Positions 1 through 61,396 of a stretch of 61,396 nt of DNA are shown here, piece after piece. A model generated the notes under the pieces. It was not told the DNA's origin, made no database searches, and saw only the letters and a list, made by a program, of their open reading frames with translations. Location of the stretch: positions 1-61,396 of IMG/VR virus record IMGVR_UViG_3300034121_001426; one strand, given 5' to 3'. Position numbers and translations under genes: made by a program. The first letter of the stretch is position 1, and every line of letters starts with the position of its first letter. This stretch comes from a virus.

Positions 1-3000
1 TATAGATATCACCGTTGCTGTCGATGGCCACACTGCTGTCGTCAGCACTGTCTGTGAGTCTCTGCCATGTGATGGTTCCCAATGGATCAAGTTTTGTGAT
101 TACAGTGTCGCCGTTGCCTTGATTTTCAAATGTCACAGCAACCACATTGCCGCTCACTGCCACACCCTTGGCATAGCAGTCATTGGTGTTGTTGTTGAGC
201 GCTCGTGTCCATTGATGTGTGCCTGCTGAGTTAAACTTGCTGACAACTGCACACCAAATGTCATTTAGAACAGGGCCGGCGGCTCCATCTCTGCTGATCA
301 TTTCACCAGCTGCATAGATGTTGTCGTTGGCGTCCACAGCCACACTCAAGTAGCGCTCGTTATCAAGCTCACCACCAGCACTCAGCACCTTGTTCCAACC
401 AGCCGTCCATACAAATGCCTCGCCTCCCAGATCGTAACCAACACTCCAGGTGCCTTCACCACCAAAATCAACTGCTTGATCAACAGTGAGCTTTCTCTTG
501 GCTGTTTGTACAGTGCCTGAAAACAGCAATCCACTTATTTCTCCGCTGCCTCCCACACTGGTAACTGTCACAGTCATGTCATTGGCTGGTGAGCTGCCTC
601 CCAGTGAGGTACCCAACACAGTGATGATGTCTCCTTGCACATAATTGCTGCCAGTGTTGAAGTTGGCAATGCTACCGCCTGCATAGTCTGTGTCATAGCT
701 AAAATCCACCTGAAAGCCTGCGCCCACTTGAGTGTTGATTCCGCTTACTCCGTTGTAGGTGGCAGGTGAACCACCTGCTGCTGTACCGCTCACAGCTATG
801 CTGAGCACTCCTGTGCCATCAACACTTTGCACAGTCACTGTGCAATCATTTGTGGGAGTGGCGCCTCCCAAGCTGGTGCCTGACACAAGAATCTTGTGCC
901 CCACTAGATAATCAACCCCTGCTGCGGCCACACCGCCAGCGCCGTAAGTTCCGTCGCCATTGTCTATGATGTTGAATTGTGCTCCACTGCCTTGTCGTGT
1001 GGCCCCAGTAATGGCATCATATTTGTTCACATCCGTGATGCTGGCTCTGCCTGTGACTCCTGTGCCAGTAACTGTCCAGGTATTTTGCACTGGGTAGACA
1101 GGGCTACCAGCTTCAATCTCAGCGTTGCTGACAATCAATATGTTGGTTGTACTGCCGCTTTGTGGAGTCACTGCTAGGCTGAAGTATTCATCATACTTGC
1201 GACCCACAACCACCACTGTGCCATCACTCAAGAAATCAAAGTCATAGGCATTTACTGTGTTGTTTTCGTTTTGATCCCTAAATCCAGTGCTGGTAACAAC
1301 TTGTGCTGTGTCCGGGTCAATCTCCACCAACAGTGCACCTGTTTCGCTGCCAAAGTATTCACACAGCACCATGATGTTGCGTGTACTGGGCAAAATCTTC
1401 ACTGCATTGCACCTGGTGTTGTTGGCATAGTCAAGGTCATATAGTGTGACACTCCACAAGATAGCTCCCTGACTATTGTAGCAAACCACAATGCCTTGAC
1501 TGTTGTTGTCATCTTGTCCCACTGCATATACATTGCCAGTTTCAGGATCCACACAGTTGGCTCGAAGCCAGATGTCATCATTGTTGTTGTTGGCAGGACC
1601 AAATATGCTGAACCAACCAATCTGTGTTTGCACCAAGCGTAGATCGCCATCGTTTGGCACAGTGACTGTGCCATCATTACCAAACACATAATCATAGCTG
1701 GCACTCTTGGCCACCTGTTGTGCCAGTTCTCCTGTTTCAAGAGATTTGGTTGTGGTTGTGACTACAATGCTGTTGGTGATATCAATAAACGTGAATGCAG
1801 CAGTGGTAAATTCTGGTACAGTGACAAATCTGCCAGGTATTCTGCTCTCTTTCACAGAGAACAGTTCGTTCCCACTGCCCAATGTGAGAGTTCTACCATC
1901 TTGGTCAATTTGAAAGGTAATGCTTTCGAAATATTGGTTGCCTGGTATGTTGTCATCGGTATCAAGTTGTTTGGCAGTGACCTGCACTGCCAGCTTGCCA
2001 TTGTTGTTGATACTGAGGAATCGGCCTCTGTTTTTGTTGTATGCATCGATACCAGGCGGTCCGTCCTCGTCCCTGCTGGGAATAAAATAGTAACCTTGAG
2101 CATCAATTTGACGCTGCCACAATGGTGTGCCACCTGGATTAAATTTGACCACAGCCAAAACATTCTTGCTGTTGAAAAAGTTGTCTATATCGCGCACAGG
2201 GTTATCTTGTGTGACCGTGAGAGCACTCAAATAGATGTTGCCTAGATTGTCGCAGTCTACACCTGTGCCCACACTAGCACAAGGTCCTGGACCGATTCTG
2301 CGCACCCACACAGATTCTCCTGTATTGTCTATCTTGATCAAATGACTGATGCTCACAGTTAGATCTTCCTCTTCATGCATGATGGTCTGCTGACTGTTGA
2401 AGCTCATGATTATGTTGCCCTGGGTGTCAACAGCCACATCTGCCCCAGAATAAGATATATCATCTTCTGGATCAAACAATATTTTGGTCCACACATGGCT
2501 GCCGTCACCCAGAATCCTGGTCACAAAGGCTGCATTGGGCAGATCATAGGGCGGCACGTCGCTCACCATCGCCCCACCCACCACAGCCATACTGCCATCT
2601 GGAGCCACATCCATACCAAACAGTGTGGTGGGAACATCCAGATTAAACTTTTGTGCCCACACCAATGATCCATCAGAGATGCTGATCTTCATGATCAAAG
2701 CCTCTCTGTCATCAAATGGTTCTTCCTCTGTGTTGAGAATGTATTCTCCTGCCACATAGATGTGTGTGCTGTCGCACATGACGCTGCCCAGCTCTTGAAA
2801 ACTCTGGCTGGGATCTTCTTCTGCTACCTGATAATCGCGCTGCCAGAGAATATTACCACTAGCATCCAGTTTGAGTAAAACAATGCTGTCAGGATCGTCT
2901 CCGTTGTCCACACTGGTGGCCACTACAATGTTGCCGGTGCTGTCAATGCACAAGTCATGCACCATATCTACATCCACATCTTCCACCAACTGCTGTTGCC

Positions 3001-6755: not shown

Positions 6756-7334
6756 TTAAAATGTTCTTTTGATAGAATCTGCAATACCATGCTCTACTGC
6801 CTCTTCAGCACTTAACCACACGTCTTGCGCAGGAAGTAAAAGCTCTTTAATTTTACTTTCACTTAAACCCGTGCAATGTTTGTACAATCCCATCATCCGT
6901 TGACTAGTAAGTTCGAACTCCTTAACACGTGACAGTAGTTCGTGCTCCTTCCCATATGATCCCCAGCTATACTGATGGGAAAGTATGCTAGTCATGGGGG
7001 TGATCACTCTAAAACCTTTATGACCTGCGATAAAAGTCAACAGCCCACATGATGAGATCTGCCCCAGTCCCAGAGTATGGATGGGAACAGCACTGCCCTT
7101 GATGATGTCAATAAGAGCAAATGCACTATTTAAATCACCCCCAGGGCTATTGATTATGAGAGTTAAATGATCAGGTCTTTTGTCAGCTGGCAGCAGGTTG
7201 TTTTGGAGGATCCATTCCACAACAGGCTTGACTGACTTGCTGGTGAAATCATCAAAAAACACATAAACATTTTGAGATTCCAGGCTGGGCAAAGCAGGTG
7301 CACTCTTGCTATCACTACGTGAATTATTGGTCAT
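6756..7334 (-). CDS. ClpP-like serine protease
   Basis: The 192-residue protein has the ClpP fold signatures and a full catalytic triad: Ser ~95 in 'GQISSCG' (consensus GQAASMG), His ~120 in 'ILSHQYSWGSYG' and Asp ~171 in 'AQDVWLSAEEAVEHGIADSI'. It would form a cytoplasmic degradation chamber fed by a Clp ATPase; a ClpX and a ClpS homologue are encoded elsewhere in this window. The start at 7334 follows CAGGA. Codon choice in the 3' half (many TTA, ACT, AAA) looks unlike the 5' half, which may mark replacement of the 3' end next to the endonuclease remnant. Confidence 0.88.
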   Translation of the reverse strand: MTNNSRSDSKSAPALPSLESQNVYVFFDDFTSKSVKPVVEWILQNNLLPADKRPDHLTLIINSPGGDLNSAFALIDIIKGSAVPIHTLGLGQISSCGLLTFIAGHKGFRVITPMTSILSHQYSWGSYGKEHELLSRVKEFELTSQRMMGLYKHCTGLSESKIKELLLPAQDVWLSAEEAVEHGIADSIKRTF

Positions 7335-17916: not shown

Positions 17917-18267
17917 TCATCCCCAGGTCAATTGGAAATAAACCTGTGTTTCTAGATCCCAGGGATACTTGATCTTTTGTGATTCCATCCAAGCAGCAAC
18001 AGCATCTGTCAAATCCACTCCGCGGACATACCACACCTGCGTGCCGTCCGCATATATCACGGCAGGCCCATCCAATCGATGGCGTTGGCCATCAACATAC
18101 CACTCCTGCCTGCCATCCGCACGTATCACAGCAGGTCCATCCGATCGATGTAATCGGCCAACTACATACCACTCCTGCCTGCCATTTGGTTGTATCACAG
18201 CAGGTCCATCCGATCGATGTAATCGGCCATCAACATACCACTCCTGCCTGCCATTTGGGTGTATCAC
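17917..18267 (-). CDS. WYVDG-repeat protein, probably 5'-truncated
   Basis: The protein is made of about four tandem ~23-residue units (pattern H-R-x-D-G-P-A-V-I, then D/N-G-x-Q-E-W-Y-V-D-G), followed by a unique C-terminus ending 'YFQLTWG'. Homologous copies lie at 57823 and 61191. The repeat pattern continues upstream for a few codons, up to the right end of the tnpB relic at 18303, where a stop appears. The gene therefore seems cut by that insertion, and the start at 18267 may not be native. Role unknown; such repeats are beta-rich and MORN-like. Confidence 0.6.
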   Translation of the reverse strand: MIHPNGRQEWYVDGRLHRSDGPAVIQPNGRQEWYVVGRLHRSDGPAVIRADGRQEWYVDGQRHRLDGPAVIYADGTQVWYVRGVDLTDAVAAWMESQKIKYPWDLETQVYFQLTWG

Positions 18268-18302
18268 AGCAGGTCCATCCGATCGATGGCTGAGTTTCTA
18301 TC

Positions 18303-18815
18303 ATGGCGCGAACTACCACGCCCTAAAGGGCTGTGGCTTCCTGCTTCATCGTAGTAGCTTGACATATCTACCATCATTTGGGATCGATGTATATATGAAC
18401 ATGTTGTTGATATCTAAATGATACCGGTGTAGTGTATTTGCGTTTGAACCGCGGAAAACAGCACTTGTTTTCTTGATATTCTTTGACTACACAATCCAAT
18501 TCTTTCAAGCTCTGTTGTAGCAACTGGCTGTGTGTGTCGTTTAACCAAGTGTGTTGTGTTTTGAGTGCTGTGAGTTGCTTGCACATGTCAAACTGCCACA
18601 CAAATGTTTATTAATTGATGTTTATCTTGAGAAAGTGATTATAGAGGAATCGCACTGACCTACCCACAGACGTCATCTGTTGTTCTTGACTTGCGGTAGG
18701 ATAGATGCGATATCTGTATCTCAATTTCATATCATAGCTATTTGTATAATCTATTCAACAGCCGCTATCCATCTAGGGCCTGAAGGCACCTGGCTTTCCG
18801 CGGCATAATTATAAT
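18303..18815 (-). mobile_element. Decayed TnpB-type insertion element
   Basis: Its left end is around 18760-18815 (minus strand: CCGCGGAAAGCC..., then AGATGGATAGCG, the same left-end motif as the element at 58289-59612). A ruined tnpB fragment lies inside. The right end is at 18303-18345 (GAAGCAGGAAGCC, a 9-bp hairpin at 18316-18336, then GTAGTTCG). Nearly the whole catalytic region of tnpB is deleted. Confidence 0.65.
18374..18730 (-). pseudogene. tnpB: tnpB remnant (N-terminal fragments only)
   Basis: From an ATG at 18730 the frame reads MKLRYRYRIYPTASQEQQMT and 'VRFLYNHFLKINI', then stops. A second frame continues 'WQFDMCKQLTALKTQHTWLN' to 'FPRFKRKYTTPVSFRYQQH' and ends at 18374. Both match the N-terminus of the TnpB at 58373-59528. 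All RuvC motifs and the zinc finger are missing, so it cannot encode a nuclease. Confidence 0.8.
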
Positions 18816-29719: not shown

Positions 29720-30610
29720 TTAGTCTAGTTCCCAGTATTCATGGGCCAATGAGCCATATTTTTCCCGGTTGAGTGCATAATACAAGCCATGTATATACAC
29801 TTCCAGTTCATCCTCCATGGCCACAGCTAAATTTGTATTTGTGGGCTCATATTTGTCCACAAATGCCTCATGCGACATATAATCTCTTATATTGGGATTG
29901 ACTAATTCATCAGGAATTACTATAGCACTATTGCTGTCTTGTACCAATTGCAGTTGGCGTGCTATATGTGTGATCACTGTGATCCTCGCCATAGCTTCCA
30001 AAGATTGAACAATCTCTTTGCGGTTATTGGGCAGAGTATTGTATAGATCAGTTGTCTGAAATTGCTTGATCCATTCAGCCACTTTGGCTCTGTAAATATT
30101 TGTTTTGTTCTGATCTACGCCCACATCCTCAGGGAACACCAGGGTAACATCATGTTTATTAGTGTATGTGAATGAACTTTTGCCATAGATGGGGAATATC
30201 AGATAAATTTTGTTGCCAAATTGTTCTGCTAGCCTATCATCTGTTGTGGCAAAGATGCTGTTGCTGCGCAGTGCAGTCATGCCACTTTTGCGTAACATGT
30301 CATCAAACAATTGTGCAGCTTCTTTGTTGCTGTCTTTGGGTTTCCTAGCCAACCAACTCCTGCCCAAAAAGGCATCTGGGCCCGTGCCGCCTCGCAACAG
30401 GAATTGGTTGGTTTCCTGCACAACACGGATGTATTCAGCACAATCTTCGCTGATTTTCTGGAATAGGTTTTTAGTGCTGCCTGTGATTCTTATGGTTTGT
30501 TTGCTGCCAGGCTCTAGAGTATCTGGTTTTAACTTGGCAAGTGATATGGGGTTATTTTTGGGTTTACCAACATTATCAACATCTTCACACAGCAAATCTC
30601 TGGCTTTCAT
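29720..30610 (-). CDS. Putative internal virion protein, ADP-ribosyltransferase-like family, copy 1
   Basis: The start at 30610 (MKARDLLCEDVD) follows GGGAG. Core motifs shared with the genes at 38917 and 39963 are 'FLLRGGTGPDAFLGRSW' and 'ARKPKDSNKEA' and 'GMTALRSNSIFATTDDRLAE', then 'IYLIFPIYGKSSF'. The Arg-Gly strand, S-N-S-I-F strand and later acidic segment suggest an Arg-specific ADP-ribosyltransferase fold; this is my inference. The N-terminal MKxxDLL motif recurs in three other proteins here and may be a head-targeting sequence. A late box lies at 30633. Confidence 0.55.
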   Translation of the reverse strand: MKARDLLCEDVDNVGKPKNNPISLAKLKPDTLEPGSKQTIRITGSTKNLFQKISEDCAEYIRVVQETNQFLLRGGTGPDAFLGRSWLARKPKDSNKEAAQLFDDMLRKSGMTALRSNSIFATTDDRLAEQFGNKIYLIFPIYGKSSFTYTNKHDVTLVFPEDVGVDQNKTNIYRAKVAEWIKQFQTTDLYNTLPNNRKEIVQSLEAMARITVITHIARQLQLVQDSNSAIVIPDELVNPNIRDYMSHEAFVDKYEPTNTNLAVAMEDELEVYIHGLYYALNREKYGSLAHEYWELD

Positions 30611-30632
30611 ATATGCAACTCCCGGGCTGCAC

Positions 30633-30640
30633 ATATTTAG
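30633..30640 (-). promoter_or_regulatory. Late promoter-like box (CTAAATAT)
   Basis: CTAAATATG on the minus strand lies 23 bases upstream of the gene starting at 30610. Confidence 0.45.
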
Positions 30641-32156: not shown

Positions 32157-32221
32157 TAAGTGTGCAGTTCGCGGATCTGAACCATCCCAACTGCTCTAAA
32201 CGCTTGAAAGGAGCATTCAGC

Positions 32222-33118
32222 ATGATATATTATATAATATATGAAACTACCAATCAAATCAATGGAAAAAAATATAGAGGCGCACATGTCTGTGAAGACC
32301 TAAATTATGGGTACCTAGGCAGTGGTACTAACCTCAAACAGGCTATGCGCAAATATGGCAAGCATCAATTCTCCAGAGAAATAATATACATGGCCTTTGA
32401 TTATGATGCTATGTGGGCAGCAGAGGCTATATTTGTAGATCAAGACTGGATTAGTAGGCCAGACGTATACAATATAAGTTTGGGCGGAAGAGGATCCAGA
32501 GGATTTCAACGTCAGATAACAGATGAACAGCGCCAACAAAGGTCTCTTGAAGCCAAAGCCAGATGGTTAAGACCAGATTATAGACAAAAGAATTGTGCAT
32601 CACAAAGGAGGAAGGCACCTCCTTCTCCTGAGGCAAGGCTCATCTTGAGCCTTGCCGGCAAGGGTATTGCCAACAGCACAGAACATAATGAGAACATCTC
32701 AAAAGGGCTTAAACAATTGTTCACCAATCCGGATGCACGATTGAAGAGAAGTGAACAGTCAACCAAATGCAATGCAAGGCCGGAAGTAAGGCACAAAATT
32801 GCGCAAGCTTTGACGGGGATAAAAAGAAGTGACGCAACAAGACAGAAGAGTAGATCAGCAGCTCAAAAGAGAGTTCAAAATCCCGAATACCTGGAGGCAC
32901 AACGTATATCACAAACCAAGAGGTGGCAAGAATGTCCTGCCACCTGGTGGAACAATGGAATCAAAAACATCCGTAGTGTGGATAAACCAGGAGAGGAGTT
33001 TCAACCAGGTCGCATATCCTTTGGTACTTGGTGGACTAACGGTCAAAAAAGTGTCATGAGTATAGAATGTCCGGGAGATGGTTGGTCTCCCGGACGCAGG
33101 ATAAACAAGGGTATTTGA
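32222..33118 (+). CDS. GIY-YIG homing endonuclease (Seg-like), HEG1
   Basis: The 298-residue protein starts 'MIYYIIYETTNQINGKKYRG' (the GIY/YIG strands as IYE...YRG), followed by 'YGYLGSGTNLKQAMRKYGKH' and the Glu-bearing 'AMWAAEAIFVDQDWI'. A basic linker with NUMOD-like repeats ('KIAQALTGIKRSDATRQKSR') leads to two 'WWNNGIKNIRSVDKPG' type C-terminal modules. AAGGAG precedes the ATG. The gene converges on and overlaps the 3' end of the AAA+ ATPase gene by 65 bases, the probable homing target. Confidence 0.85.
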   Translation: MIYYIIYETTNQINGKKYRGAHVCEDLNYGYLGSGTNLKQAMRKYGKHQFSREIIYMAFDYDAMWAAEAIFVDQDWISRPDVYNISLGGRGSRGFQRQITDEQRQQRSLEAKARWLRPDYRQKNCASQRRKAPPSPEARLILSLAGKGIANSTEHNENISKGLKQLFTNPDARLKRSEQSTKCNARPEVRHKIAQALTGIKRSDATRQKSRSAAQKRVQNPEYLEAQRISQTKRWQECPATWWNNGIKNIRSVDKPGEEFQPGRISFGTWWTNGQKSVMSIECPGDGWSPGRRINKGI

Positions 33119-34778
33119 TGTCTTCCAAAAACTGAGCACTCATGAGTAATACTTGTTCAAGGTGTTCAGTGGAGACTTCCACTCCCTGACTCTTGGCCAA
33201 GCTTCGAGCCAGTCTGATGGAATTCTTAATTTGCCGCCCATTAATCTCATGAACGCACAGTTTGTCCACATCAATATTTGTGGGCATACCAGATGCTGAG
33301 AGTAGGTTCTGCCATACCTGACGTCGGTTAAGAGGTGTCAACTTGTCGTATTTGAGCGCAACACTGATTCTGCTATAAAATGCAGGATCAAATTCAGTAA
33401 CCCGGTTTGTGGTGAGGAACATCACATCCTGATGGTATTCAGTCAACCTCAAAAATACACTGACGCAACTGTTGCGCATAATATCACCATGTCCGCGCTT
33501 CTCCAGGAAGATGTCAGCCTCGTCGATGAGGATCACAGCATTCCAGATCTGAGCCACATCCAGGATCTGACGCAGGCTCTTCTCCAGCTGAGCAGTGTCT
33601 GTGCCCAGCTCGCCTACTGCCACGCTGTAGAGCGGACGCTGGAGCAGTTCGCTCACACTTTCTGCTGTGAGGGTCTTGCCCACACCAGGATCACCATGCA
33701 ACAGGAAGATGCAACCACCGCCCTTGCCGCTGATGATATCGCTGAACCCGCCACTGTTGTCTTCCACCAGGGCACGGATCATGGCCTTCTTCTCAGGATC
33801 CATCACCAGCTGATCATATGCCTCCGTGCGGAACTCAATGTCAGTTATGTCACTCACTGCAAAACGTCCCCACTGCTTGGCCATGAAGCTGAAGCCCTGA
33901 ACGTAAGGGTCAGTCATCCACAGCTGATCTGCAGGAATGGTGGCCATGGTGTTGTTTTCGCTGTTGCGTCGCATGCGGCCACCATCCTGGAACTGATCGT
34001 AGGTGGTGAGGTCCACCATGATGCGGCCAGTGGCACGCATGGGCGTCCAATACGACCACTTCTTGACATCCATGTGACCAGTGAACTGCTTGTAGTGGCT
34101 GCCCACTGCCAGCTTTTCATACGCTGCACCACGCTGGGCAAGCTCTCGCTTCTGTGCCTCGGTGATCAGTGTGATGTTGAGGCTGTTGATGTCCTTGACG
34201 CCCTTGAAGGCATCCACCTGAGCACTGTCACGAGCAATGCCAAACTTGTTGCCAGTGCAGGTGATGTATTCGTATTCCACTTCCAGGTAGGTGCCAAAAA
34301 AGCTGGAGCGATAGGTGACATCACAGATGCGAGCACCCTGCAGATGATTGCCATGGATCACAATCTCCTTGCCAGGAGACAGCAGCATGCGCAGGCCTGC
34401 AAAGTTCAGCACACCACGGGTCACCATGTTGTTCACCTGCTCCAAGTACTGCTGATTTTCAGCGCGCACCAGGTTCACCAGGTCTCGCAGACCAGGAGTG
34501 CGACTGTTGTGTTGCAGCTCATGTTCCAGACTGGAGAGCTCATAGAACAGATCTGCAATGCTCACAACAGGTTCGCGATCATACAGGTTGGGGATCTCAC
34601 GAGTGCAATCTCGAAGAGCAGTAATCAATCGGTCGTTCTTGAGTTCAACCATCTTTTCACCACCATCTTCTGTGGTTACCAGATTGTAGGCGCGTGTAGC
34701 AGCGGTTTTGGCAGACTTGGCGGTCTTGGCAGACTTGATTTCCATGGGAACAGTCTCTAGTGTTACAGTCTTGGTCAC
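33054..34778 (-). CDS. AAA+ ATPase with long N-terminal domain
   Basis: The 574-residue protein has an N-terminal region (about 1-335) of unknown fold and a C-terminal AAA+ module: Walker A 'LLHGDPGVGKTLTAES', Walker B 'AVILIDEADIFLEK' and sensor-1 'VMFLTTNRVTEFD', followed by an arginine region 'YSRISVAL'. This is close to BCS1/spastin-type ATPases found in big phages. The last ~20 residues are antisense to the HEG1 3' end, and codon choice changes near 33480 from GC-ending to mixed, suggesting that the 3' ~430 bases were replaced. Confidence 0.85.
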   Translation of the reverse strand: MTKTVTLETVPMEIKSAKTAKSAKTAATRAYNLVTTEDGGEKMVELKNDRLITALRDCTREIPNLYDREPVVSIADLFYELSSLEHELQHNSRTPGLRDLVNLVRAENQQYLEQVNNMVTRGVLNFAGLRMLLSPGKEIVIHGNHLQGARICDVTYRSSFFGTYLEVEYEYITCTGNKFGIARDSAQVDAFKGVKDINSLNITLITEAQKRELAQRGAAYEKLAVGSHYKQFTGHMDVKKWSYWTPMRATGRIMVDLTTYDQFQDGGRMRRNSENNTMATIPADQLWMTDPYVQGFSFMAKQWGRFAVSDITDIEFRTEAYDQLVMDPEKKAMIRALVEDNSGGFSDIISGKGGGCIFLLHGDPGVGKTLTAESVSELLQRPLYSVAVGELGTDTAQLEKSLRQILDVAQIWNAVILIDEADIFLEKRGHGDIMRNSCVSVFLRLTEYHQDVMFLTTNRVTEFDPAFYSRISVALKYDKLTPLNRRQVWQNLLSASGMPTNIDVDKLCVHEINGRQIKNSIRLARSLAKSQGVEVSTEHLEQVLLMSAQFLEDIKYPCLSCVRETNHLPDILYS

Positions 34779-38916: not shown

Positions 38917-39915
38917 CTACCAAGGGTTTGGATCGTTGCCTTCCAGGTAGCGATCAATAATATATTGTTTCCATTGATCCAATCTCAGGGCCCAATATTC
39001 GCCATTGATGAGAATTTCTCTGCCATCTATCATGGCATTTTCCAGATCGTCTGATCTGGGTTCCAGGTGGTTCATGATAGCCTCATCTGAGAGCAAATCC
39101 TCTTTGGTTTTGTTGAACTCATCTGGTAATTTTAGAGGATTGCCATCGTTGAAATTGTTCTGGATTTCCCAAAACACATCATCATCATAATTGTACCCAC
39201 TGATTTCCTTGCCCAGGGGAGTATCTCGCCATTCCGGCACATTATCCATCAACCAATTTCTCAATGAGATCATGAAATTGTCCTGCCAGCCAGCACCCAC
39301 AAGTGAATCATAACTGCTGAGTATCAAATCCCCGACATTTGTGGTGAGCACATGAACTCCATTCTTGGGAAAAATACAATATATGTGGCTACCATAATTA
39401 CTGGCAAAATCACGACTGGTGGTGGTGAAAATGCTGTTGCTTCTCAGTGCTTGGAAGCCATGGTTTCTCAGAGCTTGATCCAGTCTGTTGCTGATCTCTG
39501 TTCTGCTGTCCTTGGGTGCTCTGTCTTCTCTGCTGCGACCTTCAAAAACACTCACATCTGTTCTCAACCCTCTGTACAACATTTTGCCAGTGACTTTCAT
39601 CACAGGCAGGAAGTCACTGCACTCTCTGTCCAGAATGGCAAACATTCTGGTCATACCGTTGTCAGGACGCAGTTGCATGCGTTGCAAATAGGACACCTTG
39701 AGATCAATGCGTTTCTTGAGTTTTTCCAGACTGTCCTGTAATTGTTGATCTTTCTGGAACATGCTGCTCAAACTTTCGCTGGATGCCAAACTGTCCAGCA
39801 GTTGATCAATTTTATTCTGGATGTCTTGTGCTCTGCGTAGAGATAGATCATCTCTGATTTTTTTCTCGCCAGGCTGCAGGAGAGAGGAGTTTTCCAAAAG
39901 ATCCCATAATTTCAT
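38917..39915 (-). CDS. Putative internal virion protein, ADP-ribosyltransferase-like family, copy 2
   Basis: Starts at 39915 (MKLWDLLENSS). After a coiled-coil region (about 30-95) come 'KMLYRGLRTDVSVFEGRSR', 'RAPKDSRTEISNRLD', 'HGFQALRSNSIFTTTSRDFA' and 'IYCIFPKNGVHVL'. The set R-G, P-K-D-S, S-N-S-I-F and I-F-P is shared with the 29720 protein, and more weakly with its neighbour at 39963. This is the best-preserved member for a test of ART activity. Late box just upstream. Confidence 0.6.
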   Translation of the reverse strand: MKLWDLLENSSLLQPGEKKIRDDLSLRRAQDIQNKIDQLLDSLASSESLSSMFQKDQQLQDSLEKLKKRIDLKVSYLQRMQLRPDNGMTRMFAILDRECSDFLPVMKVTGKMLYRGLRTDVSVFEGRSREDRAPKDSRTEISNRLDQALRNHGFQALRSNSIFTTTSRDFASNYGSHIYCIFPKNGVHVLTTNVGDLILSSYDSLVGAGWQDNFMISLRNWLMDNVPEWRDTPLGKEISGYNYDDDVFWEIQNNFNDGNPLKLPDEFNKTKEDLLSDEAIMNHLEPRSDDLENAMIDGREILINGEYWALRLDQWKQYIIDRYLEGNDPNPW

Positions 39916-39940
39916 TTTAAATTGCACCGCATGTTTGAAT

Positions 39941-39962: not shown

Positions 39963-40955
39963 TCAATCTTGGTTATAGATAAATGATTGTTCCAAAAACG
40001 TATTCCAAAGATCATACCTGAATGCCCAATATTCACCTCTGATGCGACACGTTTTGGAGGAAACAGTAAATTGATGGGCACTCAGTTGCTGTGGGTCAAA
40101 GGTGTTTATTATGGCCTGATCATTAATAAAATCAGTCAGGCTCTTGTCGAATTGTGGAGGGATCTTCCAACGATTACCTCTATAGGAGAATTCCATTTTC
40201 AATTGGTGAAAAATTTCTAGATAATTCTGTGCTTTGACAGCATTTCCTAGATCGTTATATCCTGATTCAGGGGTGTGGGATTTGACCCAAATTTTCAAGT
40301 CAAGAACGAATTCATCCAATTCTGACCGATCTGCAAAATTTCCCATAGTCAAGGGGAGATTGTTGTATTGGAGTATTTGGAATCCATTTTTGGGAAAAAT
40401 CACATAAGTGATGCCCCCAGCCCTCCTTGGATCCCACTGGTCTGTGGTGACCCACATGCTGTTGGTGAGGAAAGCAGTGTAACCTGAATTCTTGAGAGCT
40501 TGATCAAATGTTTGTGTGATTTCTGGAAAGTTAATTTTATCTGGTACAAGGTATTCCGCTTCTGGCTGCGCATGTGCGTCAAACACTGAATCTTGTTGTT
40601 GGATACTGGTATACAGTAGACGGTGGTTTTCCTTGATCAAATTGATCCACTCACTGCATTCCTGTTGCAGTATGGGTATGATTTTCTTTTGGCCCTGAGT
40701 GGGCTTATCACCCATTTTATGCAGGTAGGAAATTTTCAAATTGATTCGATTGATTAGTTTTTCCAACGCTGTTTGAAGTGCAGTGTCTTGTTGAAATCTG
40801 TCCTTGAGAATTACACTATCGTTAAATGCCTTGTTCAATTTACGTATTTTATCCAGTATTGCAGTCAAATCTCTAGTGGTGATGTCAGTTCTGGTGCGTT
40901 TTGCACCAGGTGGCATTGGTTGATCGAACGATTGTTCAAATAGATCTAGTAATTT
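39963..40955 (-). CDS. Putative internal virion protein, diverged copy 3 of the family
   Basis: Starts at 40955 (MKLLDLFEQSFDQP). It shares with copy 2 the N-terminal motif, the helical region and 'QALKNSGYTAFLTNSMWVTT', 'ITYVIFPKNGFQIL'. The Arg-Gly strand has become 'LLYTSIQQQ' and S-N-S-I-F has become T-N-S-M-W, so predicted transferase residues are lost. It may be a structural or inactive paralogue produced by tandem duplication with 38917. Confidence 0.6.
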   Translation of the reverse strand, partial: KLLDLFEQSFDQPMPPGAKRTRTDITTRDLTAILDKIRKLNKAFNDSVILKDRFQQDTALQTALEKLINRINLKISYLHKMGDKPTQGQKKIIPILQQECSEWINLIKENHRLLYTSIQQQDSVFDAHAQPEAEYLVPDKINFPEITQTFDQALKNSGYTAFLTNSMWVTTDQWDPRRAGGITYVIFPKNGFQILQYNNLPLTMGNFADRSELDEFVLDLKIWVKSHTPESGYNDLGNAVKAQNYLEIFHQLKMEFSYRGNRWKIPPQFDKSLTDFINDQAIINTFDPQQLSAHQFTVSSKTCRIRGEYWAFRYDLWNTFLEQSFIYNQD

Positions 40956-40985
40956 CATTGGCATCAATTCCAATAACTGTTTGGT

Positions 40986-41404: not shown

Positions 41405-42127
41405 TTAGCTGATTTTGTTTTCCAACATGCCCATGTAGGCATCATAATTGTGCCCTGGCCAGGTGTGAAATCCATTCTTGGGAGTGGTTCTAAACTGATC
41501 CCAGAATCCACTGCCCATGATGTGAGCATTGAACATTTCCATGACATTTTGTTCAGTGTCATTGAGGTGATTCATGCTATGATTGATTTCCTTCACCATT
41601 TCAATGCCTGGTTCTCCACCATATGTGGCATTGGCTGGCAGTCTCTGCCTGCGTGGCTTCTTGCCGCGATAGAGACTTTCTATGTCGCCGCCTTTGAATA
41701 TGTCAGTTTTGTACCAGTTGGGCTTGCCACCAGCATCCTGCACATATTCAATCACCACTGTGTCAATCATGCCAGCCCATTTGGGTTGATTGAGTATGGA
41801 TTTCATGTTGCCCCACACATCCTGATCAAAACCATTTATGTAGAGCACATTGCCTTGCCCGTGACCCACACCTGTGCGCCACTTGGCACCCTTGTCCCAG
41901 ACAATTCTCAGGATGCCTTGCTTGTAGGCTTCCCAGAGTGCTCTCACAGGTTTGTTTTGAATATAGTCAGGCAATCCCAACTGATGCTGATGCTTCACCA
42001 GCCAGTCTCTGTGATTGCGTTCGGGTGTGATATCCACCAGCTTGTGGTTGATATAAAAATAGGCGTCGCCCAGTTCTGCTGGGCGAGCGCCTGATTGTTT
42101 AGCTTCTAGTAATTCCAAGATCTTCAT
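41405..42127 (-). CDS. Hypothetical protein with MKxxELLE N-terminus, 240 aa
   Basis: Begins MKILELLEAKQSGARP, the same kind of N-terminal motif as the genes at 29720, 38917 and 39963. The rest is soluble ('YIQNKPVRALWEAYKQGILR', 'GHGQGNVLYINGFDQDVW', 'MIDTVVIEYVQDAGG') with no known motif. The start codon sits five bases after a TAAATA box with no ribosome site, so a leaderless late message is likely. Probable virion protein. Confidence 0.6.
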   Translation of the reverse strand: MKILELLEAKQSGARPAELGDAYFYINHKLVDITPERNHRDWLVKHQHQLGLPDYIQNKPVRALWEAYKQGILRIVWDKGAKWRTGVGHGQGNVLYINGFDQDVWGNMKSILNQPKWAGMIDTVVIEYVQDAGGKPNWYKTDIFKGGDIESLYRGKKPRRQRLPANATYGGEPGIEMVKEINHSMNHLNDTEQNVMEMFNAHIMGSGFWDQFRTTPKNGFHTWPGHNYDAYMGMLENKIS

Positions 42128-42131
42128 AGAG

Positions 42132-42140
42132 TTATTTATT
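42132..42140 (-). promoter_or_regulatory. Late promoter box (AATAAATA), leaderless spacing
   Basis: Minus-strand AATAAATA is followed by ACTCT and then the ATG at 42127: exactly five bases. Confidence 0.55.
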
Positions 42141-42159
42141 GGCTCTATGAGGGAAATTC

Positions 42160-42240
42160 CTACTTGCTGTTCACTGCGATGGCTGTGACACTGTTGAAGG
42201 GGCTGCCATCAAGCAGCTTGGTGCTCCACACAAGGTAGAC
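42160..42240 (-). pseudogene. Orphaned original 3' end of creA
   Basis: On the minus strand this segment reads 'VYLVWSTKLLDGSPFNSVTA' then 'IAVNSK' and a stop, matching the end of the intact creA gene ('VYLVWSTKLIDGSPFNSVTA') 0.8 kb away, but with quite different codons. It has no start and no 5' part. HEG2 separates the two copies. Confidence 0.85.
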
Positions 42241-42244
42241 CTGG

Positions 42245-42252
42245 TATAAATA
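42245..42252 (+). promoter_or_regulatory. Perfect T4 late promoter TATAAATA before HEG2
   Basis: TATAAATA lies 43 bases upstream of the HEG2 ATG at 42296. Confidence 0.65.
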
Positions 42253-42295
42253 GTTTATTACATGTGTAATAGACAAGACAAAGGAGAGGAGACAT

Positions 42296-43024
42296 ATGTT
42301 CCTGCAGAACAAATATACTAAATGGTATTTCAATATTGTGAATAATGCTCAAGGTCGCAATAGATCAGATCTTGCATTGCCCATGGAACGACATCACATT
42401 ATACCAGATTGTATGCATCTGAATAGAAGACGCCACGGACCACCAGGGACTGTTCGGGGAAATCCAAATAACCCCAACAATTTAGTTTATCTAACCATTA
42501 AAGAACACTTCTTATGCCACTGGCTATTGACTAAAATGGTTGATTCACAATATCTCAGACCGATGCATTATGCACTCCATAGGATGACATTTTGTCGTAG
42601 ATCTAATACCAGGCTCATTGCAGGCTGGCAGGTCTGTAAAGCTAGAACGGCGATTCTTGCAGCAACAGTTGGACGCTCTCTATCAGAGGAAACAAAAAAG
42701 AAGATTAGCGCCTCCAAGATTGGTAAACGCAAAGGTCTTAAGCAATCACCAGATCATGTTCAAAAAAGAGCTAACTCTCTTAAAGGAAAGGCTAAATCAG
42801 CAGAACATAAATCGAATATATCTCAATCGAAAATGGGCAAGACATCATATATTCGAACAGATGAGACCAAGGAAAAAAATAGGAAATCCAGGATTGGAGC
42901 GGCAAAAGATTACAAATGGTGGAATGACGGAACTAAATCTACCTTATGTCCCGTTTGTCCAGGAGATGGGTGGAGTCAAGGACGATTTAAGGCGATTTCA
43001 AAGGAACTGCGGTTACCGAATTAA
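42296..43024 (+). CDS. HNH homing endonuclease with NUMOD3 repeats, HEG2
   Basis: The 242-residue protein has an HNH core: 'MERHHIIPDCMHLNRRRHGP', then 'NNPNNLVYLTIKEHFLCHWL'. NUMOD3-type repeats follow ('LSEETKKKISASKIGKRKG', 'KSAEHKSNISQSKMGKT') and the C-terminal module 'YKWWNDGTKSTLCPVCPGDG'. AAAGGAG precedes the ATG. Its last 38 bases overlap the 3' end of creA on the other strand, and the displaced creA end lies on its 5' side, so creA is the probable homing target. Confidence 0.88.
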   Translation: MFLQNKYTKWYFNIVNNAQGRNRSDLALPMERHHIIPDCMHLNRRRHGPPGTVRGNPNNPNNLVYLTIKEHFLCHWLLTKMVDSQYLRPMHYALHRMTFCRRSNTRLIAGWQVCKARTAILAATVGRSLSEETKKKISASKIGKRKGLKQSPDHVQKRANSLKGKAKSAEHKSNISQSKMGKTSYIRTDETKEKNRKSRIGAAKDYKWWNDGTKSTLCPVCPGDGWSQGRFKAISKELRLPN

Positions 43025-43451
43025 ATGGACTCCCATCTATCAGCTTGGTAGACCAGACCAAATACACTAACGATTTGCGGTCAGGGTCCCAAAACCTGCT
43101 CACTCTCATGGTTTTGAACAAGAAGCTGGTTTTCTCTGTGAAGATCACTTCACCCTTGCGGCTGCGATCAATTTCACCTTTGATCTTGATCTCACCAGTT
43201 GCACGGCAGGCAATACTGAAGCGGCTGGGATCTTCAGCAATGCCCAGTGCACCTGTGATGCCACCAGTTTCTGCACGGCTGATATAACAACTGACTCCAT
43301 CCACCTTGGGATCGTCAAACCGTTCCACAACCACCCTATCACCACTGCCCAGTATGCGCCAGGTGGTGGTTACTTCACCCACTTGCGTTTGGGCCAAGGC
43401 TGTGGTTGCAGCACACGCCAGAGCTGCAATAGCCAAAAACATGTTTTTCAT
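42987..43451 (-). CDS. creA: CreA family exported protein with replaced 3' end
   Basis: The 154-residue protein has a signal peptide (about 1-20, ending 'ALAQ') and the CreA pattern: 'GSGDRVVVERFDDPKVDGVS', 'CYISRAETGGITGALGIAED' and 'PSRFSIACRATGEIKIKG'. CreA is a periplasmic protein of unclear function. From about 43080 onward the codons change (TCG TTA GTG TAT TTG) relative to the 5' part, and a second, native-looking copy of the same end lies beyond HEG2. The gene is intact in frame. Confidence 0.88.
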   Translation of the reverse strand: MKNMFLAIAALACAATTALAQTQVGEVTTTWRILGSGDRVVVERFDDPKVDGVSCYISRAETGGITGALGIAEDPSRFSIACRATGEIKIKGEIDRSRKGEVIFTEKTSFLFKTMRVSRFWDPDRKSLVYLVWSTKLIDGSPFNSVTAVPLKSP

Positions 43452-43464
43452 GTGAGATGCTTTC

Positions 43465-44040
43465 TTACTTGACCACAGGCATCAGCAGCGCCTGGATGCT
43501 GTTGCCCTGCATGTTGGGCTCACGTTCCAGCTTGTGTTCACCCACAGCAGCCAGGAAGCGATTCATCACTTCCACACCCAGTTCACGATAGGCCATTTCT
43601 CTACCGCGAAACTTGATTACAACCTTGACCTTGCAACTGTCATCCAGGAAGCTGCGTGCATTGCGAGCCTTGATCTCAATATCATGCTCGTCAGTGACAG
43701 GTCGCAGTTGCACTTCCTTGATGTGAATTTCATTCTCTCGGTTCTTGCGAGCACGTTCCTTGGCTGCCTTCTTCTGCTCATACAGATACTTGTTGAGGTC
43801 CACAATCTTGGCAATCATGGGCTGCGCCTCAGTGTTGATTGCCACAAGATCCATGCCTTCCAGCCTGGCTCTGTTGAGCGCGTCATGTGTTGCCACAACA
43901 CCCAAGTTGCTGCCATCCTGTAGGATCAGGCGCACCTGAGGTGAGCGAATGCGTTCGTTAGCCAGAGTCTGTTCTAGTGCCATGGTAGATGGTTGGTCCT
44001 TTTTGTTTCGAATATGATTACTATATGGTATTTTCGCCAT
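43465..44040 (-). CDS. infC: Translation initiation factor IF-3
   Basis: The 191-residue protein is full-length IF-3: N-domain 'NERIRSPQVRLILQDGSNLG' and 'ALNRARLEGMDLVAINTEAQ', a Lys-rich linker ('YEQKKAAKERARKNRENEI') and C-domain 'KEVQLRPVTDEHDIEIKARN', 'KVKVVIKFRGREMAYRELG'. It controls start-codon selection and subunit dissociation. The ATG at 44040 overlaps the clpX stop (TGATG); an internal ATG at 43983 would also give a normal-length IF-3. Coupled to clpX. Confidence 0.93.
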   Translation of the reverse strand: MAKIPYSNHIRNKKDQPSTMALEQTLANERIRSPQVRLILQDGSNLGVVATHDALNRARLEGMDLVAINTEAQPMIAKIVDLNKYLYEQKKAAKERARKNRENEIHIKEVQLRPVTDEHDIEIKARNARSFLDDSCKVKVVIKFRGREMAYRELGVEVMNRFLAAVGEHKLEREPNMQGNSIQALLMPVVK

Positions 44041-47568: not shown

Positions 47569-47664
47569 TTATTCCCAGCCTTCGAATAAATTTTCATCCC
47601 ATTCGCGATGCCCTTCACGGAAAGCCATGTTTGATTGAGTTTCCCTCACTTCCACTCTGAAGGC
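47569..47664 (-). pseudogene. Orphaned original 3' end of queD
   Basis: On the minus strand this segment reads 'AFRVEVRETQSNMAFREGHR' then 'EWDENLFEGWE' and a stop. It matches the end of the intact queD ('MVQVRETDANMAMRVGHRED') about 0.9 kb away, with different codons. There is no 5' part. HEG3 lies between the two copies. The rest of the 47455-47730 gap shows only a late box. Confidence 0.85.
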
Positions 47665-47730: not shown

Positions 47731-48432
47731 ATGAATATTTACGCAGATAATCTGCCTTACACCTACTTCCTTATGTGGAAGTCTAGCAAATTAAAATATT
47801 ATGGTTGCCAATATGGCAAGAAGGCTAACCCACAGAATATTCTATCAGGAACCTACCGAACCTCTTCAAAATATGTCAAACAGTATTGGAATGATTTTGG
47901 CGCTCCAGATATAATCGTTATTCACAGAACGTTTCAATCATCTAAAGAATGTAGAGAGTTTGAACAATTATATCTAAAAAGAGTAAGAGCACCCTATAAA
48001 GAAGATTGGCTCAACAAGACAGATAACAAAGCTATAGTAACAGAAAACTATAACCCAGAATCTTGGCAGAAAAGCCATGCTAGTCGAGCAAGACATAGAC
48101 AAGAAGATCCTGAATTCAATAAACTTATGAACGATAGGTTCGTTAAAATGATGCATAGTGAGAGTGCGACCGCCAAGCGTAAGGAAACATTTATCAAAAC
48201 ACAGCACTCTAAAGGAGCCAACAATCCTAGATATGGAGTTACAGTAGGCGAAGATACACGTAAGAAGATGTCTATCAAGCGAAAGTCTCAATATGAATTC
48301 AATGTTTTAAGATCAAAAGATCTCAATAAGACTAATAAAGTCTGTGAACATTGTGGTAAATCAGGACTCAATGCAGGGAACTATAAAAGATGGCATGGAT
48401 CTAAATGCCCTAAAAAACCAACATGTGTCTGA
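47731..48432 (+). CDS. GIY-YIG-like homing endonuclease, HEG3
   Basis: The 233-residue protein begins with 'YTYFLMWKSSKLKYYGCQYG' and 'ILSGTYRTSSKYVKQYWNDF', followed by 'KECREFEQLYLKRV', a layout resembling phage GIY-YIG-type free-standing endonucleases. A basic middle leads to a C-terminal Cys4-like finger ('VCEHCGKSGLNAGNY...C'). AAGGA precedes the ATG. It converges on queD, whose displaced 3' end lies on its 5' side. Confidence 0.72.
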   Translation: MNIYADNLPYTYFLMWKSSKLKYYGCQYGKKANPQNILSGTYRTSSKYVKQYWNDFGAPDIIVIHRTFQSSKECREFEQLYLKRVRAPYKEDWLNKTDNKAIVTENYNPESWQKSHASRARHRQEDPEFNKLMNDRFVKMMHSESATAKRKETFIKTQHSKGANNPRYGVTVGEDTRKKMSIKRKSQYEFNVLRSKDLNKTNKVCEHCGKSGLNAGNYKRWHGSKCPKKPTCV

Positions 48433-48434
48433 TT

Positions 48435-48465
48435 GTTTAGGGGGTAGTAATACTACCCCCTAAAC
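48435..48465. terminator. Bidirectional terminator between HEG3 and queD
   Basis: A perfect 15-bp inverted repeat (gtttagggggtagta/tactaccccctaaac) with a single-base loop separates the two convergent genes. Confidence 0.75.
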
Positions 48466-48468
48466 AAA

Positions 48469-48951
48469 TTATGAGAATAAATCCTCGTTATCCTCTCTAT
48501 GGCCTACTCTCATAGCCATATTTGCATCAGTCTCGCGAACTTGAACCATGCTGCACCAAATTCTTTCGGCTTCTGCTGCACCATATTGAGGCAAGAACAC
48601 TCCATTTATATATTTGTATAGGAAATCAGCAATCCCCTCACAACCAGTGCGCTCAACTTCTGTAATTTTGGCTAGCCCTAATTCTCCTAGCTTTTTCATG
48701 TCTTCGTAGTGAGGATCATCAAAAGCCAATAAGAGAGTATGATCGAACCATTCCTCGAGTTTGTCCTTCAAAGGGCGAAGTCCACCAAAATCCATGCACC
48801 AGTTACGTGCATCCAATGTATCGCATTCAAATTCCAAATGAAAGCTGAGGGAATAACCATGTATAAAACGACAGAGGCTATCTGCCCGCCATTGACGATA
48901 CGCTACTGGTCCAATTTGTCTATAAGTTTTTGTGCTAATCCATTTCGCCAT
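48469..48951 (-). CDS. queD: 6-carboxytetrahydropterin synthase (QueD/PTPS family)
   Basis: The start at 48951 (MAKWISTKTYRQIGPVAYRQ) follows AGGGGACAAGAG. Family motifs are 'FIHGYSLSFHLEFEC' (zinc His residues), 'DARNWCMDFGGLRPLKDKLE', 'WFDHTLLLAFDD' and 'ERTGCEGIADFLYKY'. The enzyme makes the precursor of 7-deazaguanines, used for queuosine in tRNA or, in several phages, to modify DNA guanines. No other pathway genes appear in this window. The 3' end appears imported with HEG3. Confidence 0.85.
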   Translation of the reverse strand: MAKWISTKTYRQIGPVAYRQWRADSLCRFIHGYSLSFHLEFECDTLDARNWCMDFGGLRPLKDKLEEWFDHTLLLAFDDPHYEDMKKLGELGLAKITEVERTGCEGIADFLYKYINGVFLPQYGAAEAERIWCSMVQVRETDANMAMRVGHREDNEDLFS

Positions 48952-49065
48952 CTCTTGTCCCCTGTTGTATGAGCGAGTTTGATGACTGTGCAGAATTTTT
49001 AGAGTGGGTTGATTACAGTCATAGTCCACTGGCAATATTTACAACTATACCCATCAATCATCCTG

Positions 49066-57822: not shown

Positions 57823-58251
57823 TCAACCCCACGCAAGTAGGAATTGAGCGGCTACATCGTCATCCCAGGGACAGGCCACACCCAGTGATCTCATCCAGGA
57901 TTTAATTTCATCGGTCATGTTCTTGCCATGCAGCCACCACTCCTGCGATCCATCTGCATGTATCACAGCAGGCCCATCCAATCGATGTAGTTGGCCATCA
58001 ACATGCCACTCCTGCGATCCATCTGCATATATCACAGCAGGCCCATCCAATCGATGTAGTTGGCCATCAACATACCACTCCTGCAATCCATCTGCATATA
58101 TCACAGCAGGCCCATCCAATCGATGTAGTTGGCCATCAACATGCCATCTTTGCGTGCCATCTGCATCTATATGCCGACCGACCTGCGGCGTGATCCCCTT
58201 GCTAGGGATACAGTGATTTGTTGAACAAATTGTTAACCCTGATAGGAACAT
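57823..58251 (-). CDS. WYVDG-repeat protein, copy 2
   Basis: Four tandem ~23-residue units of the type 'GQLHRLDGPAVIYADGSQEW' are followed by a unique C-terminal domain ('MTDEIKSWMRSLGVACPWDD') ending 'FLLAWG'. The DNA repeats are almost identical to each other. An in-frame ATG at 58251 is used here, but the better ribosome site (AGGAG) serves an ATG a few bases upstream whose frame stops quickly, so the 5' end may be damaged. The right end of the TnpB element lies just upstream. Confidence 0.6.
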   Translation of the reverse strand: MFLSGLTICSTNHCIPSKGITPQVGRHIDADGTQRWHVDGQLHRLDGPAVIYADGLQEWYVDGQLHRLDGPAVIYADGSQEWHVDGQLHRLDGPAVIHADGSQEWWLHGKNMTDEIKSWMRSLGVACPWDDDVAAQFLLAWG

Positions 58252-58288
58252 AGCATGATTCTCCTGAATTATTGAGAATAATAACTGG

Positions 58289-59612
58289 TCTCTCAATAAA
58301 GTCAACCGGTGAACTACTGTTGGTCTAAAGACCAACAGCTTCCTGCTTCATTTGTGACTGAGATACATGGCCCTAATTGTCCATCATATCCCAAGTCACA
58401 TCCACGGGCGCTTGAGGCAGTTCCTGCCTTGCATGATCTATGTTCCATTGTTGTAGTCCCCAGTTCTTGATATTCATGGCCGCATTGATATCTCTGTGCT
58501 GCGTAACGCCACAAGATTCACAATGATATTCTCTTTGCTTCAAATCCAGTGATGATTTCTTGGTACCACATGAGCTGCATGTTTTGCTACTGGGTAGCCA
58601 CTGATTGATTTTGGTGAAGTGATGGCCTGATAGCTCACACTTGTAGGCAATCGAGTTGGCCAGCATTGCCCATCCGGCATCTGCTATACACTTGGCGGCA
58701 TATTTGCTCTTCTTCCTCATCTCATCAATTTTCAGTGTTTCAACTGACACCAGGTCATGCGATTTGGCTATTCTCGCACTGATCTGGTGTATATGGTTTA
58801 ATCTTTGGCAACGAACCAGATCATGAGTTCGTGCCAGTTTTAATTTTGCTTTGGTTCTGTTCTTGCTTGACTTGGCTTTTCTGCTCAACTTGCGTTGTTG
58901 ATGTTTGATGTGTTTGCGCTTTTTGGCAAGTGGCCTTGGGTTCTCAATCAGTGCCCCTGTGCTGAGTGCAGTGTATTGTGAGTTGACATCCACTCCCACT
59001 GGGTTCTGCACTTGATCTACCAATGGCAGTTCTGCCACATCAACCACAAAACTTGCATACCAACCACGTGGTGTTTGGGTAATAGTTACGCATTGATATT
59101 TCGCAGGTAATTCCCTGTGCAACACAATTCGAACAATACCTATCTTGGGTAATCTCAAATACCTGTTGTTGTCCACTAGATTGGTGTGTTGTTGATATCT
59201 AAATGATATGGGAGTAGTATATTTGCTCTTGAACTTGGGGAATCCAGCACTGGTTTTCTTCATATTTTTCCAATGCAGTATCCAAGTCCTTGATGCTGCT
59301 CTGCAACACCTGACTGTAGGTGTCTTTCAACCAAATGTGTTGTTTTTTCAGATCAGTCAGCTGTTTGCACATGTCAAACTGCCACACAAATGTTTTGTCT
59401 TGGTTGTATTGATCTATGTTTACCTTGAGAAAGTGGTTGTATAGGAATCGAACTGCACCACCCACAGACGTCATCTGTTGTTCTTGTTGCAGGGTAGGAT
59501 AAATCCTGTAGCGATATCTCTGCTTCATTTGTGCGATTATGTATGCCACTCGCTATCCATCTGTTGGCTTAAAAGCCAACAGACTTCCGCTCGAAAGTTA
59601 AAGCATGAATGC
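58289..59612 (-). mobile_element. TnpB-only insertion element (IS200/IS605-type, no tnpA)
   Basis: The left end (59551-59612) contains the CTGTTGGCTT/AAGCCAACAG hairpin and ATGGATAGCG; the tnpB frame follows. The right end carries GAAGCAGGAAG, a perfect 10-bp CTGTTGGTCT/AGACCAACAG hairpin (58317-58338) and GTAGTTCAC. No Y1 transposase is present, so it would move only in trans. The right end plus the 3' of tnpB should form the omega-RNA scaffold, with CGGTTGACTTTATTG at the guide position. Confidence 0.75.
58373..59528 (-). pseudogene. tnpB: TnpB RNA-guided nuclease gene with an N-terminal frameshift
   Basis: The N-terminal part (from MKQRYRYRIYPTLQQEQQMT at 59528) and the main part (ending at 58373) are in different frames. 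The join is near 59245-59255, where 'EKYEENQCW' should run into 'FPKFKSKYTTPISFRYQQ', as the relic at 18374 shows. The 3' frame keeps all catalytic features: RuvC-I 'PVGVDVNSQYTALS', RuvC-II 'SVETLKIDEMRKK', zinc finger 'CSSCG...CESCG' and RuvC-III 'HRDINAAMNIKN'. One base change would restore it. A shortened product could start at 59263. Confidence 0.85.
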
Positions 59613-61190: not shown

Positions 61191-61396
61191 CTAACCCCAG
61201 GTCAGTTGAAATTGAGTCTGGATTGCTGAGTCCCAGGGCCATGTACCATCAATTTTCTGCATCCATGCAACGATTTGATTGGTCATGTTCTTGCCATCAA
61301 CATACCACTCCTGCGATCTATCTGCATGTATCACAGCAGGCCCATCCAATCGATGTAGTTGGCCATCAACATACCACTCCTGCGATCTATCTGCAT
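61191..61396 (-). CDS. WYVDG-repeat protein, copy 3 (5' end outside window)
   Basis: Open to the window edge. Two visible repeat units ('SQEWYVDGQLHRLDGPAVIH') lead into the unique end 'MTNQIVAWMQKIDGTWPWDS' and 'QFQLTWG', closest to copy 1. It is the third member of the family and lies in the duplicated block beside the 60871 pseudogene. Confidence 0.8.
   Translation of the reverse strand, partial: ADRSQEWYVDGQLHRLDGPAVIHADRSQEWYVDGKNMTNQIVAWMQKIDGTWPWDSAIQTQFQLTWG

Follow-up and report, generated by a model that had tools for sequence, protein, structure and literature searches.

The window analysed here, a stretch of viral DNA of 61,396 nucleotides, carries a creA gene, a homing endonuclease (HEG2) that runs into the creA 3' end from the opposite strand and, on the far side of HEG2, an orphan copy of the creA end (Table 1). 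As the preliminary description had it, creA is intact: the product of its ORF matches CreA (PF05981) with an E value of 1.2e-53 over profile positions 1-129 of 131. HEG2 belongs to a known homing nuclease family (phrog_655 'homing endonuclease', E 5.9e-27). Its matches to Pfam AHH and NUMOD3 are weak and lie under the Pfam cut-off, and the HH..N..H pattern of HNH enzymes is kept, as judged by eye. The overlap of the creA end with HEG2 was likewise borne out. Nothing of the gene stands in front of the orphan end, and HEG2 sits between it and the intact creA. L397, the closest syntenic HEG-free relative of this phage, lacks creA altogether; at the corresponding place it has a homologue of one part of the gene downstream of creA. 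Since three further IMG/VR contigs hold the same creA/HEG2/orphan structure at 99.99-100% identity, this structure is not an assembly artefact.

Table 1. Features at the creA, queD and related loci (positions in the window unless another record is named; a point marks features given no strand)
Feature	Position	Strand	Basis or remark
creA, intact hybrid gene, 154 aa	42987-43451	-	ORF; CreA PF05981
Putative replacement 3' end of creA, foreign in codon usage (codons 126-154 and stop)	42987-43076	-	Codon-usage breakpoint; identity to orphan
HEG2, HNH/AHH-type homing endonuclease with NUMOD3-like repeats, 242 aa	42296-43024	+	phrog_655
Antisense overlap of HEG2 and creA 3' ends, 38 bp	42987-43024	.	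ORF coordinates
Orphan creA 3' end, native-like, 26 codons and stop, VYLVWSTKLLDGSPFNSVTAIAVNSK	42160-42240	-	Protein match; codon usage
T4-type late-promoter-like box TATAAATA at orphan/HEG junction, upstream of HEG2	42245-42252	+	Putative role
Shine-Dalgarno-like AAAGGAGAGG ahead of HEG2 start	42280-42289	+	Sequence; putative
Native gene downstream of creA, function not assigned	41405-42127	-	32-bp gap to orphan stop
queD-like gene, foreign codon usage throughout	48469-49035	-	PF01242, E 2.7e-14
HEG3, degenerate GIY-YIG-like N-terminus (by eye) and NUMOD3	47731-48432	+	
Orphan queD 3' end with stop, VEVRETQSNMAFREGHREWDENLFEGWE	47569-47655	-	
35-bp near-perfect inverted repeat between HEG3 and queD 3' ends	48433-48467	.	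-26.1 kcal/mol, z -6.6
Third HEG, SegE GIY-YIG type	32162-33118	+	
AAA ATPase	33054-34778	-	
Late-promoter-like box, DUF7717 locus	L078, about 319-326		
Late-promoter-like box, helicase locus	L177, about 6770-6780		

The two versions of the creA end are closer to each other in protein than in DNA. Over 20 codons, 19 of 20 residues and 39 of 60 bases are the same in the current end and the orphan. In a 25-residue alignment the identities are 0.60 (nucleotides) and 0.80 (amino acids), and 15 of the 19 identical residues with synonymous alternatives are spelled by another codon. The protein match between orphan and creA end within the window has an E value of 2e-10, so their likeness is not a matter of chance. 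The attached end had been called recoded. In the strict sense this word does not apply, as 5 of the 25 residues differ, and these amino-acid differences lead us to read 'recoded' as 'borrowed from a diverged homologue'. A target recoded by synonymous changes only is not what creA displays; among the genes described below nrdB alone comes close, with 23 of 24 residues identical in its two ends and codons that differ at 9 of 22 sites.

In codon usage the attached creA end is foreign, while the orphan and the 5' part of creA are native-like. Using a codon model trained on 30 other genes of the window, we obtained z values of 0.04 for creA codons 1-128 and -0.06 for the orphan end, against -3.71 for the last 27 codons of creA (1.2 percentile among 342 same-size windows). 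The strongest breakpoint within creA fell at codon 126, position 43076, with a suffix z of -5.1. The earlier claims that the creA end is written in different codons, and the orphan in native-looking ones, are thus both confirmed; the proposed length of the divergent tract, some 25 codons, is corrected to about 29. Elsewhere in the window, the strongest codon-usage outlier among the genes tested (z -4.7) lies at 39963-40973 and is one of three paralogous genes with no assigned function, the other two being at 29720-30634 and 38917-39927.

Our scan of viral DNA found no close HEG-free relative of this creA. It returned the same phage (L003, L004 and L007, the last picked up through its HEG) and the distant L005 and L006, and a scan with the gene downstream of creA returned the same phage only. 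L005 and L006 are the only HEG-free phage with creA that were found, and in L005, a 452-kb contig, the gene is uninterrupted. In DNA, the creA end of these two is nearer to the orphan than to the current end (0.73 versus 0.68). This comparison would favour the orphan as the ancestral version, but is suggestive only, as creA is too diverged here to decide, its 5' part being just 61% identical. Among 50 bacterial creA genes, mostly of alphaproteobacterial and Halomonas types, no donor of the foreign end could be singled out.

The same arrangement recurs in other phage DNA. We scanned 1.94 Mb of HEG-rich phage DNA (collected HEG-bearing loci with about 188 distinct HEG-like ORFs) for C-termini with a second, partial copy at a distance of 350-2000 bp; HEG-internal pairs, repeats and full-length paralogues were set aside. 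This yielded seven 3'-end cases, namely creA, queD, a DUF7717 gene (L078), polA (L185), nrdB (L206), folE (L207) and a UvrD-like helicase gene (L177), and in all such pairs an HEG lay between the gene and its terminal fragment. A mirror scan for N-termini gave one convincing 5' case, a thymidylate-kinase-like gene (L219) that is matched by phage thymidylate kinases; the other HEG match in that scan was rejected as an antisense shadow of folE. At L219 the HEG is preceded by the native start on its own, which reaches as far as the Walker A codons GEDHCG, and the gene now starts with a diverged copy of those codons and its own ribosome-binding site. Across the cases the nucleases are of the HNH, GIY-YIG (including SegE-like and LEM-3-like) and endonuclease VII families, the one at L219 being recognised solely by similarity to other HEGs and NUMOD3. 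In four cases gene and HEG converge, and their 3' ends either overlap or have a terminator in common. The duplicated stretches are conserved functional ends, such as the NrdB tail and motif VI of the helicase. With this anatomy repeated at seven genes other than creA and with different nuclease families, we are dealing with a real kind of element.

In seven of the eight cases the codon usage of the orphan was more native-like than that of the attached end. For nrdB the z values were -3.3 (current end) and -1.2 (orphan), and for the thymidylate kinase gene -3.4 (new start), +2.6 (remainder of the gene) and -1.1 (orphan). The helicase gene is the exception, its codon usage pointing the opposite way, and for polA and folE a hybrid signal is absent in codon usage. 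HEG-free alleles of polA, nrdB and folE were not found in related records; both folE records have the duplicated end.

The DUF7717 gene of a cyanophage offered a direct comparison with HEG-free relatives. Among 79 homologues, L237 (87% identical in nucleotides) and L238 (79%) are the closest in the 5' part, and both are uninterrupted and without HEG. These two, and no other of the 79, have an end that is nearer to the orphan than to the one now attached; were the homologues independent, such a coincidence of the only two orphan-type ends with the two closest 5' parts would have a probability of 1 in 3081. Between L078 and L237 the identity reaches to the junction TACAAACCA and gives way to divergence beyond it; it runs through GATAAGAATGACGGTGCATGTTACAAACCA, and TACAAACC also begins the orphan. 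Since the closest HEG-free relatives have ends of orphan type, the DUF7717 orphan is the old end, and by this comparison of sequences the current end is judged to be imported from another cyanophage clade.

The second element in the window, at queD, is different in extent. HEG3 and queD are convergent, and the inverted repeat between their 3' ends is likely a bidirectional terminator. The codon z values of queD are -3.6 for the 5' part and -2.3 for the end, and that of the orphan queD end is -0.70. L316 and L397, both HEG-free, are syntenic with the window in queD, a deaminase gene, the gene at 45.8-46.9 kb, clpX and infC, and their site is empty, HEG3 being absent at queD. The end of their queD resembles the current one (0.75 nucleotide identity) and not the orphan (0.53). 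The QueD protein is 85% identical to that of L316, as compared with 44-67% for neighbouring genes, and queD DNA is 81% identical to that of L317, with which, in the 20 kb examined, the window has no other gene in common. The entire queD gene was probably co-converted, and recently exchanged between otherwise unrelated phages. Because HEG-free relatives of queD have an end of the current type, a simple model in which only the end is replaced fails at some loci. There was no sign that the queD end came from the phage L091, whose HEG is 59% identical; identity was flat along the gene. The window holds a third HEG, which overlaps the 3' end of the AAA ATPase gene by 65 bp in antisense; beside that gene no orphan end was found.

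We consider it likely that HEG2 forms part of a mobile homing element in which an HEG is joined to a substitute copy of the invaded gene's end; its cut site, immunity, homing and origin from a diverged homologue are what we infer. What stands of the earlier proposal of a divergent replacement that keeps the gene working is the foreign end, the full-length creA and the recurrence at seven other genes; its wording as recoding does not. The strongest competitor is ordinary intronless homing with long co-conversion, where the HEG cuts elsewhere, imprecise repair drags in the donor's end or whole gene, and the orphan is a functionless scar. Free-standing HEGs of T4 are reported to cleave at sites hundreds to thousands of bp distant, with co-conversion of the flanks (PMC2988022), and the whole of queD looks imported, both in codon usage and in being much closer to L316 and L317 than the neighbouring genes. 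Plain co-conversion, however, swaps a flank without leaving a duplicate, and here orphans lie beside the HEG at eight loci; moreover, creA, nrdB and DUF7717 are foreign at the 3' end only, and the thymidylate kinase gene at the 5' end only. We therefore regard this explanation as unlikely, if to be kept in mind.

Still less probable, and disfavoured, is a tandem duplication of creA followed by HEG insertion and decay of one copy. The partial second copy does adjoin the gene as it should under this explanation, but the two copies differ from each other as much as homologues of separate phages do (60% of nucleotides identical), foreign codons occur in the end of the intact gene only, and throughout the 1.94-Mb scan the HEG always lies between gene and fragment. 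That creA is split by an intron bearing the HEG, with the orphan as exon 2, is barely credible: HEGs are often located in introns, but HEG2 is antisense to creA, creA is complete without the orphan, and a group I or II intron around HEG2 was rejected because 42000-43600 gave no Rfam match up to an E value of 1.

For the favoured reading, an element consisting of HEG and replacement end, the following course can be envisaged. HEG2 would cut an uninterrupted creA, carried by a related phage in the same cell, at or close to the conserved coding stretch for VYLVWSTKL. The break would be repaired from the HEG-carrying genome, with upstream creA on one side and, on the other, the orphan together with the gene that follows as flanking homology. 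The recipient would thereby acquire the diverged creA end together with the HEG, its own displaced end being left as an orphan that would serve as flanking homology in the next round. The replacement end would keep CreA at full length, and its divergence in DNA would make self-cleavage unlikely; it must differ in DNA, or else the restored gene would again carry the target. An end borrowed from a diverged phage homologue would both work and differ in DNA, with no need of designed recoding. As the 3' ends of HEG and creA overlap, the replacement end is not easily lost without the HEG. Taking all loci together, we lean, with some reserve, towards a widespread and so far unrecognised phage class of natural home-and-rescue elements. 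Their nucleases, drawn from several families, would each be aimed at the codons for one conserved terminal motif (helicase motif VI, the polymerase A end, Walker A, the NrdB tail, the FolE end) and would move together with a diverged substitute for that terminus, so that core metabolic and replication genes would exchange their ends among phage lineages.

Elements of this design are already known from fungal mitochondria. In the mORF gene hybrids of Allomyces macrogynus atp6 and of Glomus atp6, atp9, cox2 and nad3, a foreign inserted C-terminus, an endonuclease ORF and the displaced native C-terminus follow one another in that order (PMC3630166). The native copy is the closer one to relatives, and the two Glomus atp6 ends are 63.5% identical in nucleotides and 91% in amino acids (PMC3630166); similar C-terminal duplications occur in Endoconidiophora (PMC6279837). 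The phage loci, that of HEG2 included, resemble these hybrids in that an endonuclease ORF lies between a gene with a second version of its end, in frame, and a leftover copy of that end, and in the low nucleotide but high amino-acid identity of the two ends. That the attached end is the foreign one and the leftover the native one is favoured by codon usage at creA, whose relatives are too distant, and borne out by relatives at DUF7717, but does not hold in its simple form at queD. They differ in residing in phages instead of fungal organelles and in their nucleases, which are HNH, GIY-YIG or endonuclease VII as opposed to LAGLIDADG or GIY-YIG. In mORF hybrids gene and endonuclease have the same direction and are often in phase, whereas four of the cases here are convergent, and only the phage cases have a late-promoter-like box and one 5'-end version. 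As a natural version of a recoded rescue, the idea of the preliminary description, the phage element would not be a first instance, for the fungal elements do likewise (PMC3630166).

With the free-standing Seg and Mob HEGs of T4 the phage elements share nuclease families, the lack of an intron and a place beside metabolic or replication genes, as far as the review passages go (PMC2988022). They differ in the displaced duplicate gene end, none of which was found at any of the 15 HEGs of T4, taken as a control; elements of the present type are therefore not how all phage HEGs work. Insertion of T4 mobA splits the topoisomerase genes 39/60 (PMC3014915). There too an HEG has entered a conserved phage gene without loss of the gene's function, but this is kept through a split into two subunits and not through a replacement end. 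The synthetic home-and-rescue drive HomeR carries a re-coded 3' end of PolG2 (PMC7968924) and, like the phage element, places a nuclease in a conserved 3' coding region and restores the gene through a replacement 3' end; it is engineered, Cas9-based and deliberately recoded, in contrast to the natural phage element with its divergent and probably borrowed end. The phage arrangement is absent from the available passages of the T4 review and of a survey of HEGs at exchange boundaries (PMC2988022, PMC10448857), and a search of open papers, which is not proof of absence, found no phage report of such an element. What appears new, no phage report having been found, is the phage version of a design known from fungal mitochondria.

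An element of this kind could allow a free-standing phage HEG to settle without harm in the coding sequence of a useful gene, which an ordinary insertion there would destroy. With their short, defined native and replacement sequences, these loci could serve as natural models for home-and-rescue gene drives. They would also explain hybrid phage genes with foreign ends, and such ends can mislead gene phylogenies.

Several further observations concern the loci and contigs surveyed. Boxes of the TATAAATA type at the orphan/HEG junction are present in three of the convergent cases (creA, L078 and L177), and the inserted element may therefore have a late promoter of its own. In the nrdB case (L206:6505-7693) about 310 bp of coding-like sequence of no known family lie between the HEG and the orphan end, and this element may carry cargo. 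The polA gene of L185 (1240-4347) also matches the intein splicing domain PF14890, which, with the HEG element, makes two selfish elements in one gene. In L186-L199, phage contigs of 405 kb and 111 kb, a conserved N-terminal tag of about 25 residues, MKIVREHINEKFxEESDPIHDMGIG, opens many otherwise different proteins, whose genes often stand in tandem arrays. Finally, repeated paralogous ORFs with the motif ADGSQEWxVDGxLHRLDGPAVIHADGS occur in the window at about 17920-18420, 57826-58347 and 61194-61394.
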